A DNA stretch of 64,000 nt, taken from assembly GCA_028291345.1 (NCBI GenBank), contig JAQGIF010000204.1, positions 1-64,000 on the forward strand, in the 5' to 3' direction. Source of the DNA: Rhodospirillales bacterium. GTDB lineage: Bacteria > Pseudomonadota > Alphaproteobacteria > BOG-932 > Roseiterribacteraceae. Every line of letters begins with the position of its first letter. The stretch's first letter is position 1. This document shows, piece by piece, positions 11,302 through 14,112 of the stretch. The notes under the pieces were generated by a model. It ran no database searches and had not been told where the DNA came from. It saw only the letters and a program-made list of their open reading frames with translations. The position numbers and the translations under genes are program-made.

Positions 11302-14112
11302 ATGCGTAATCTGTCTTTGTCTATGCTTTTTGCAACGGTAAGCACGTCTGTACTGGCGTTTGCTCAACCGGTGGTTGCGCAAACATCCGACCAGCCCGCA
11401 GCGTCTGATGGAACGGGTATCGAGGAAGTGCTGGTGACCGCTCGCCGCCGCGAGGAAAAGGCTCAGACTGTTCCGATCGCGCTCACCAGCCTGACCACCG
11501 AACGGCTCCAGAAACAGGACATACGCAGCAATCTCGATCTTTTGCGCGACGTCCCTGGCCTCAATGGCACGACCGGCGCGTCGCTCGGCGTGTCCTTTAC
11601 TTTCATCCGTGGCGTTCCCGGCGTCGTTTCCTATTTCGATCAGATTCCAACCGCGGTGAGCGGGGTCAACCAGTCCTATTTCTTCGATGTCTCGAACGTG
11701 CAGGTCCTGAAAGGCCCGCAGGGCACCTTGTTCGGCCTCAGCAACGATGCGGGCGCGATTCTATATGAGCCGAACAAGCCGACGAACAGTTACGAAGGCT
11801 ACGTCCAGGGGACGATCGGCAATTATAATCGCGGAACCGTCGAAGGCGTGCTGAATTTGCCGATCGACGACAAATTGTCGATCCGCGTCGGCGGTCAGTT
11901 CCAGCATCAGGATGGATATATCCACGTCCTGCATCCCGACATCGATCTGCTCGATCAGAACTATTGGGCCACGCGCTTCTCGGCAACGTTCCGGCCGACC
12001 GACAATTTTCAGAACGACCTGATGGTCAATTATTTTCATAGCCGCAGCCGGCCGGGCACGTTCGTGCTCAACCAGGTCAATCCGGGCATTCCGGTGGCCT
12101 TTGCGAATGCGGGCGGACCCGGCGTCGGCTTACCGGTCTCCGTGATCGCCCTGTTCACCAATCCGCCTGGATCCCCCACCTTGGATCAGGTTCTGGCGCG
12201 GCAGAAGCAACTCGGCGTCTATACTGTCGATGCACTCAGCCTGCCGCCCAGCATGCAGGTGTCGCAATGGAACATCGTGGATACGGCGTCTTTCGATATC
12301 AACGATAGCCTGACCCTCAAGAATATCTTCGGATATCAGGAAACGCAGAACAGCGCCTTCGTTCAGGACATTGACGGTTCGTCGCTTGCTCTGGTGCAGG
12401 GGGCGACACAGCTGCCGAGCCAGTCCTCGGGGCCATCCGTGCAGTACAACGAGGAAATTCAGCTGCTTGGCAAGGCGTTCGACGACAAGCTGACCTTCGT
12501 TGTCGGCACCTTCAACCAGCTTGGCGGTTACAGCTCGTCCGATACGCGGACGCCCTATGGGATCGGCTACCAGAACTCCTTCGGTCAGACCAAGGGATCG
12601 ACCAGCGTCAGCCGGGCGCGTACCGACGCGGTCTACCTGCAAGGCACTTACAGCCTGTCAGATTATGTCGAAGGGCTCAGCGTCACAGCCGGTGGCCGTT
12701 ATAGCTGGGATAAATTCTATACGCGTGGCGACGCCTATCTGCCCAACGGACAGCATGCGCCGAATGTTACGGTCATCGACCCGATATCTGGTCTCGCGGT
12801 CTTGGTTCCTTCGACCGTTTCGCAAGCGGCAAACTTCCGGTCCCCCAGCTACACGTTCAGCATCGATTATCAGTGGCGCCCGCAGACCCTGTTCTACATC
12901 ACGAACAGCCGCGGTTATAAGACTGGCGGTTTCAACAATACGCCGACCCAGATTTTCACGAACTTCGCGCTCTATAAGCCCGAGCATCTGAACAATTTCG
13001 AAGGTGGTGTCAAAACCGACTTCGATCTGGGCGCATTCGACATGTCCACCGTGAAGGGCCGCATCAATCTCAGCGCTTATTACGGGGTTTATCAGAGCAT
13101 CGCCGTCCAGACGACCGGTGCTTATGCAATTCTCGGATCCCCGGTGCCGCAGCTCGGTACGCCCATCATCAATGTCGGCGACGGCGACATTTATGGTTAT
13201 GACGGTGAAATCACGATCGTGCCCGATTCCTCGGTCGAACTCAGCGCGAACTTCGCTTATACGCGCGGCCGCTATAATGCCTTCCAGGGACCGAACGCCG
13301 CCGGTAACGGCCAAGTGCTGATTCCCGGCGTCAACTTTGAAATCACGCCGCTTTGGAAATTCAACATCCATGGTGCCTATCACCTCCCGATCGATCCGAC
13401 TTACGGCGATCTCAGCCTGACGGCGGCCTATTCCTGGACTGACCGTCAAATTCTGACCGATGCGGCAAGCCTGTCGCCGCAAGATTATCTCGAAGCCTAT
13501 GACAATCTGGATATGACGCTGGATTGGAAAAGCGTGATGGGCGACCATGGGCTGGATGCCCGCCTGTTCGTCACCAACCTGCTGGAGAACAAGGTCGCGG
13601 CTGGCGTTCTCGCGGCATACAAGGTTATTGGCATTCTGGGCTACCAGCCCGCCCAGCCGCGCATGTATGGCGTAACGGTCCGCTATGCTTTCGGCGGAGA
13701 AGAGGAAGCCGCGGCAACGACAGCCGCCTACACCCCGCCGCCGGCCGTAGCTCCGGCACCGTCTGTGCCGAAGAGCTATCTGGTTTTCTTCGACTTCAAC
13801 AAGTCTGACCTGACGCCCCAGGCGCTGACGATCGTCGACCAGGCCGCGCAGAATGCCGGCCCGGCCCATGTGACCAAGCTTGAGGTCACCGGCCATACGG
13901 ACACTGTCGGTTCGGACGCGTACAATATGCGCCTGTCCCGCCGTCGCGCGGAATCGGTCGCGGCTGAGCTGGAGAAGGACGGCATTCCTTCTTCCGAGAT
14001 CGAGATCATCGCCAAGGGCAAGCGCGACCTGCTGGTCCCGACCGCCGACGGCGTGAAGGAACCGCAGAACCGGCGTGTCCAGATCGTCTATGGAGGCGAC
14101 GCAAGCTCGTGA
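11302..14112 (+). CDS. TonB-dependent receptor with C-terminal OmpA peptidoglycan-binding domain
   Basis: 936 residues from ATG 11302 (GGGAGG upstream). Residues 1-26 are a signal peptide ending in VVAQ. IEEVLVTARRREEKAQTVPI is a TonB-box/plug start of the sphingomonad type, then comes the plug (VQVLKGPQGTLFGLS) and a 22-strand barrel ending near residue 797 in VRYAF. A receptor should stop there. Instead, a Pro/Ala linker (TPPPAVAPAPSVP) leads to residues 823-936, a full OmpA domain with VFFDFNKSDLTPQAL, LEVTGHTDTVGSDAYN and EPQNRRVQIVY. The product would be an outer-membrane importer tied to peptidoglycan. It presumably imports the substrate of the surrounding catabolic genes. Confidence 0.93.
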   Translation: MRNLSLSMLFATVSTSVLAFAQPVVAQTSDQPAASDGTGIEEVLVTARRREEKAQTVPIALTSLTTERLQKQDIRSNLDLLRDVPGLNGTTGASLGVSFTFIRGVPGVVSYFDQIPTAVSGVNQSYFFDVSNVQVLKGPQGTLFGLSNDAGAILYEPNKPTNSYEGYVQGTIGNYNRGTVEGVLNLPIDDKLSIRVGGQFQHQDGYIHVLHPDIDLLDQNYWATRFSATFRPTDNFQNDLMVNYFHSRSRPGTFVLNQVNPGIPVAFANAGGPGVGLPVSVIALFTNPPGSPTLDQVLARQKQLGVYTVDALSLPPSMQVSQWNIVDTASFDINDSLTLKNIFGYQETQNSAFVQDIDGSSLALVQGATQLPSQSSGPSVQYNEEIQLLGKAFDDKLTFVVGTFNQLGGYSSSDTRTPYGIGYQNSFGQTKGSTSVSRARTDAVYLQGTYSLSDYVEGLSVTAGGRYSWDKFYTRGDAYLPNGQHAPNVTVIDPISGLAVLVPSTVSQAANFRSPSYTFSIDYQWRPQTLFYITNSRGYKTGGFNNTPTQIFTNFALYKPEHLNNFEGGVKTDFDLGAFDMSTVKGRINLSAYYGVYQSIAVQTTGAYAILGSPVPQLGTPIINVGDGDIYGYDGEITIVPDSSVELSANFAYTRGRYNAFQGPNAAGNGQVLIPGVNFEITPLWKFNIHGAYHLPIDPTYGDLSLTAAYSWTDRQILTDAASLSPQDYLEAYDNLDMTLDWKSVMGDHGLDARLFVTNLLENKVAAGVLAAYKVIGILGYQPAQPRMYGVTVRYAFGGEEEAAATTAAYTPPPAVAPAPSVPKSYLVFFDFNKSDLTPQALTIVDQAAQNAGPAHVTKLEVTGHTDTVGSDAYNMRLSRRRAESVAAELEKDGIPSSEIEIIAKGKRDLLVPTADGVKEPQNRRVQIVYGGDASS

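Follow-up and report, generated by a model that had tools for sequence, protein, structure and literature searches.

A TonB-dependent receptor (TBDR) gene in a 64,000-nucleotide stretch of DNA from a Rhodospirillales bacterium (assembly GCA_028291345.1, contig JAQGIF010000204.1; the whole stretch is here called the window) runs without a stop codon into a complete OmpA peptidoglycan-binding domain, and about half of the TBDRs of the genus, a group of uncultured bog bacteria, carry such a tail. The tails evolve in concert within each genome, apart from the barrels that carry them, and this homogenisation is limited to the last ~105 codons, also where two genes have barrels with no detectable relationship. 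It is rather likely that an OmpA tail was captured, was spread and homogenised by ectopic recombination, and ties the receptors non-covalently to peptidoglycan. The initial annotation, made from this sequence alone, had described the fusion for one gene, and missed both the recurrence of the tail in the genus and the presence of the same domain on unrelated barrels.

The window gene (P0001; features in Table 1) belongs to a genome of 5.6 Mb in 401 contigs (G000). Translation, Pfam and predicted folds agree on the single 936-residue reading of the initial annotation, a receptor followed by an OmpA domain, with the Plug and OmpA matches in one unbroken frame; Pfam does not report the TBDR barrel family PF00593 for the protein, nor does it find the eight-stranded OmpA membrane barrel (PF01389, PF13505). 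The receptor part is predicted to have the TBDR fold, with FyuA as the best Foldseek match (target-normalised TM-score 0.86) and Fiu, FhuA and many other TBDRs also matched. In the AlphaFold2 model of the whole protein, built from 23 aligned near relatives, the plug and barrel are resolved and the tail has a predicted local distance difference test score (pLDDT) below 50. Modelled alone with diverse OmpA domains, the tail adopts the OmpA/Pal fold with a pLDDT of 84 and matches E. coli Pal (1oap; TM-score 0.86), OprF and the complex of A. baumannii OmpA with diaminopimelate. In the alignment of the 23 relatives, E41, V45 and T46 of the TonB-box-like motif are invariant.

The extent of the tail is made clear by untailed relatives. 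Plasmid-encoded TBDRs of Sphingobium, Sphingomonas and Novosphingobium align with the window protein over residues 7-802 at 31-33% identity, and the alignment stops at ~798-802. These homologues have no OmpA domain and end 2-6 residues past the last-strand phenylalanine equivalent to F797, two of them with RYRFGASAR and RYHFGL, right after the strand that reads VRYAFGG in the window protein. The expectation that receptors end on the last barrel strand thus holds outside the lineage, and the barrel end proposed initially, VRYAF, was confirmed. The window protein continues for 139 residues beyond F797 instead of ending at that strand; because such an ending is a custom of the family and not its definition, it is kept among the TBDRs.

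The fusion recurs on a large scale. Reading of the frames in G000 gave 25 intact TBDR-OmpA genes and about nine more that are disrupted or continue past a contig end, while two further genomes of the same genus hold ~20 (G001) and ~12 (G002, 65% complete), so that the several independent genomes proposed initially as a check are at hand. Nor do homologues always end at VRYAF, an outcome that would have spoken against the fusion, as tailed paralogues and tailed genes in other genomes were found. In the sister genus (G003 and G004) there is exactly one TBDR-OmpA gene per genome, and one of these assemblies consists of only 3 contigs. In a sample of 385 genomes from the class, the top-scoring OmpA matches listed outside the family lie in frames of 117-711 residues, almost all about as long as an ordinary OmpA, which leaves room for rare fusions elsewhere; the 711-residue frame belongs to G045, where the stretch around it shows only overlapping long frames of 467-720 residues. 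A phylum-wide search, in which two candidates were scored per genome, was little informative. No published description of TBDR-OmpA fusions was found in a literature search of open-licence full texts. The link to sphingomonads drawn initially from the joint found no support: within the class the lineage has a family to itself (f1), and related public metagenome-assembled genomes carry the labels Rhodospirillales or Alphaproteobacteria.

The separate evolution of tails and barrels emerges from trees of 50 tailed receptors from the three genomes, scored by the number of changes of genome label. The body tree requires 24 changes (mean of shuffled labels, 21), which fits a pairing of orthologues, whereas the tail DNA tree requires 7; among length-matched controls, the tail protein gives 6, the tail third positions 9 and the last 106 barrel residues 24. 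Bodies thus group by orthology and tails by genome, so that a tail resembles other tails of its genome largely irrespective of its barrel. Accordingly, in 14 reciprocal-best orthologue pairs with bodies 59-79% identical, the tail is generally closer to its best same-genome paralogue (mean identity 0.92 to 0.95) than to its orthologue (mean 0.88), which is the mark of concerted evolution; the exceptions in G000 are the OmpA barrel, the PagL barrel and one TBDR (L095).

Individual gene pairs show where the homogenised segment begins and ends. Most paralogues can be aligned with the window gene in DNA only from ~13690-13737 onward. With the receptor gene L077 (contig C388), the window gene has in common a 284-bp tract outside which the bodies are ~32-44% identical and the flanks are at chance level; in the tails, 55 of 59 four-fold sites are identical, where the background fraction is 0.53 (P 1.5e-11). 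Similarly, L075 and L091 have tails that are 93.4% identical and bodies that cannot be aligned (BLASTP, 1e-5). In the pair L078_44 and L081, the tail and ~150 bp past the stop codon are ~98% identical before identity drops to chance level, and since selection on the protein cannot explain identity past the stop, this tract argues for recombination. Across all tails, average identity is 85% for amino acids and 53% at four-fold sites, a pattern that points to strong purifying selection with intermittent conversion on top.

As to the origin of the tail, the TBDR and autotransporter tails of the genus form one group in the tail tree, and its neighbour is the tail of the genus's own eight-stranded OmpA barrel (support 85/89). 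Because this is the nearest relative, capture from a resident ompA is the best reading, and it probably took place separately in each genus. The recombination with a resident ompA suggested initially is therefore plausible, but not as one founding event: what is seen is recurrent concerted evolution, and the joint at 13690-13790 does not mark a single event. The sister-genus TBDR tail groups with the OmpA tails of that genus (99/93), and the body of this receptor groups apart on the receptor tree; a single fusion common to both genera is not supported by these two placements, and the sister-genus gene likely reflects either local conversion or a fusion of its own. In G000, the presence of the tail needs 12 changes on the receptor tree, at least 10 of them forced by well-supported branches, with gains and losses not separable. 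Orthologues without a tail are also kept between G000 and G001 (L108-L222, 77%; L116-L223, 80%).

The same module is not restricted to importers. A homologous OmpA domain is C-terminal on an autotransporter of 919 residues in G000 (L096:293-3049, contig C327) and of 972 residues in G001 (L147), by Pfam; the two are orthologues with 68% identity, which makes the OmpA-tailed autotransporter a stable architecture. It also ends the OmpA-type barrels L098 and L149 and the PagL-like lipid A deacylase barrels, of ~300 residues, of G000 (L100:205-1122, contig C54) and G001 (L150). Conversely, in BBP2 porins the order is reversed and the OmpA domain stands N-terminally, right after the signal peptide (L172 on C220 of G000, L173 and L174 of G001, and L031:2598-4691). 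These assignments rest on Pfam for L096, L098, L100, L147 and L172-L174, and on body orthology to them for L149 and L150. Judging by family topology, the OmpA domain would face the periplasm in each arrangement. Outside these genomes, the C-terminus of photosystem I PsaB in PDB entry 7f4v (chain aB) matches the OmpA domain (E 3.7e-9) and is another case of such a domain appended to a protein.

Table 1. Features of the tailed receptor gene, in window coordinates
Feature	Position	Strand	Basis and remarks
TBDR with C-terminal OmpA peptidoglycan-binding domain	11302..14112	+	936 residues plus stop; translation, Pfam, fold
Probable signal peptide, residues 1-26, ending ...PVVA	11302..11379	+	Sequence, by eye
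TonB-box-like motif EEVLVTA, residues 41-47	11422..11442	+	Sequence, judged by eye
Plug domain, residues 54-150	11461..11751	+	PF07715, E 2.7e-11
Receptor barrel, ending VRYAF (residues 793-797)	11752..13692	+	Last strand 788-798 (AlphaFold2); Foldseek
Linker, Glu/Ala then Pro/Ala, residues 798-824	13693..13773	+	Sequence
OmpA domain, residues 829-924	13786..14073	+	PF00691, E 3.2e-19, 98/98 profile positions; fold
D867, predicted diaminopimelate contact	13900..13902	+	Invariant in 72/72 tails; R882 lies 15 residues on
R882, predicted diaminopimelate contact	13945..13947	+	Invariant in 72/72 tails
Recent conversion tract common with L077	13765..14048	+	5 mismatches in 284 bp; base-by-base comparison

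The neighbours of the window gene encode an aldehyde dehydrogenase, short-chain dehydrogenases, a cytochrome P450, SnoaL-like proteins and a luciferase-like monooxygenase, a context that suggests uptake of a hydrophobic or aromatic substrate for catabolism. Elsewhere in the genus, tailed receptors form tandem arrays (C298 of G000, C234 of G001), and in the latter an orphan OmpA tail without a barrel lies between two tandem tailed receptors (L132:1396-1701), likely a remnant of unequal recombination. Related receptors in tandem, the first untailed and the second tailed, keep their order in G000 (L078, C120) and G001 (L135/L220, C85). A tailed receptor of G000 (L079, C252:8354-11026) has an in-frame TAG in the linker, immediately ahead of the OmpA domain, with the tail beyond it intact, reflecting either a recent nonsense mutation or a base error. 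Lastly, a contig labelled Acidobacteria (L031, JABDBE010000044) encodes both a TBDR-OmpA protein, whose tail is 86% identical to those of the genus, and the OmpA-BBP2 porin, whose OmpA domain is 90% identical; it is probably misbinned from a relative of the genus.

In the proposed course of events, an ancestor of the genus would first have captured the tail, with its own OmpA as the probable donor, after which recombination would have carried it to numerous TBDRs and to one autotransporter or more. Ectopic gene conversion would still homogenise the tail within each genome as the barrels diverge normally. In the protein, the last barrel strand may serve as an internal assembly signal, with the chain leaving into the periplasm, where the flexible Pro/Ala linker would let the OmpA domain grip peptidoglycan diaminopimelate through D867 and R882. 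The corresponding residues of A. baumannii OmpA, D271 and R286, contact diaminopimelic acid and have the same spacing (PMC6572160). Each tailed receptor would then also be a non-covalent tether between outer membrane and wall, one that may keep the membrane and the TonB box near the wall, and the importers would take on part of the wall-anchoring load of OmpA. The data show the fusion, its recurrence, the homogenisation of the tails, the intact binding residues and the fold, whereas binding to peptidoglycan, tethering and any benefit from it are inferred.

Several points weigh against the reading of a captured, recombination-spread tether. The evidence for the genus comes from three fragmented assemblies (G000, G001 and G002), and at least 26 TBDRs of G000 are untailed. 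An older fusion followed by homogenisation with a resident ompA would look similar to capture. Synonymous sites are close to saturation in most pairs of tails, and conversion is thus intermittent. Exact runs shared between tails (median 26 bp, up to 131 bp) could let an assembler swap partners in a few genes, although such swaps cannot create tails or their pattern of divergence. Other tethers are available in G000, which also encodes a Pal-like protein and an ordinary OmpA barrel, so that no shortage of them would explain a need for the tails. Moreover, E. coli OmpA without its peptidoglycan-binding domain is no more mobile (PMC3637615), which weakens a simple role in positioning the receptors.

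Other explanations account for parts of these data. A single old fusion, inherited vertically with many losses of the tail and kept alike by purifying selection only, without recombination between genes, is unlikely. It would fit tails with 85% amino-acid identity under strong purifying selection and four-fold sites near saturation, parsimony counts that cannot tell gain from loss, and the untailed orthologues kept in G000 and G001, which make the tail state fairly stable. It is largely refuted by the clustering of tails by genome, even at third positions, against the clustering of bodies by orthology, by near-identical, sharp-ended tracts that link genes with unrelated bodies, one of which includes ~150 bp of non-coding flank, and by the nesting of the autotransporter tail among TBDR tails, impossible by descent from a receptor. 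Pure selection without recombination is ruled out by the third-position and 3' flank evidence, as is universal recent homogenisation by the near-saturation of most tail pairs at four-fold sites. That the partner of the OmpA domain is a protein, such as TolB or a component of the TonB system, and not peptidoglycan, is very unlikely: the Pal-TolB and YfiB-YfiR complexes are among the nearest solved relatives of the tail fold, but the invariant diaminopimelate pair is not obviously needed for binding protein only.

The tail might instead serve mainly as homology for shuffling receptor bodies into expressed loci, as in cassette or phase variation, with tethering secondary. The tandem arrays, the orphan tail and a pair with tail and 3' flank in common but not the body would agree with such a role; yet no silent cassettes, recombinase or repeat signals turned up, in the course of work that included no dedicated search for them, and the intact diaminopimelate residues of all tails, together with purifying selection, point to a function in the protein, which renders shuffling as the main purpose highly improbable. 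An assembly artefact, in which repeated tails were stitched onto receptors or the genome-specific likeness was made by the assembler, is scarcely credible. The assemblies have hundreds of contigs, several of which break off within a tail, as would happen at a repeat, and exact shared runs reach 110-131 bp; however, the window tail lies well within a 65-kb contig, the independent assemblies G001 and G002 have the same architecture, the 3-contig sister-genus genome has its one TBDR-OmpA, and the tails are distinct copies with a median exact run of 26 bp and flanks of their own. Since this type of junction recurs in ~34 genes of G000 and in two other genomes, an assembly join at the window gene is excluded, and the same recurrence across three genomes rules out a one-off fusion.

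The tailed receptors resemble several known systems in part. Like members of the OmpA/OprF family, they combine a barrel, a Pro/Ala linker and a C-terminal periplasmic OmpA domain with the Asp/Arg pair for diaminopimelate, and the OmpA barrel of G000 itself carries the closest relative of the tail; unlike them, the barrel is that of a gated TonB-dependent importer, in ~34 genes, with no OmpA membrane domain. The TBDRs of Sphingobium, Sphingomonas and Novosphingobium belong to the same receptor family but lack the OmpA domain. OmpM of diderm Firmicutes likewise makes a single protein both an outer-membrane tether and a nutrient channel, but it is encoded by four paralogues in V. parvula, and the portion of the source drawn on here does not mention tail homogenisation (PMC10628300). 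The LysM inverse autotransporters intimin and YeeJ also place a periplasmic peptidoglycan-binding domain on a transport barrel, and that of YeeJ binds peptidoglycan and helps surface localisation; in these single adhesins, however, the domain is LysM instead of OmpA and is N-terminal (PMC5595812). Concerted evolution of bacterial paralogues, in which genes of one genome are more alike than orthologues, has been described (PMC6053082), whereas in the tailed genes homogenisation is confined to the 3' module and extends across unrelated barrels, with the remainder of each gene diverging.

Taken beyond the receptors, the arrangement may amount to distributed tethering, in which one module would be the common foot of importers, an autotransporter, a PagL-like enzyme and porins and, on the importers, would be kept uniform by continual gene conversion, giving a variable barrel on a constant anchor; this wider view is about as likely as not. 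Nutrient import and the holding of the outer membrane to the wall, usually separate jobs, would be joined in dozens of receptors. The genus may thereby offer a natural experiment on the effects that anchoring might have on TonB-driven transport, on the mobility of receptors and on vesiculation, and its tails show with unusual clarity how concerted evolution in bacteria can act on a single domain.
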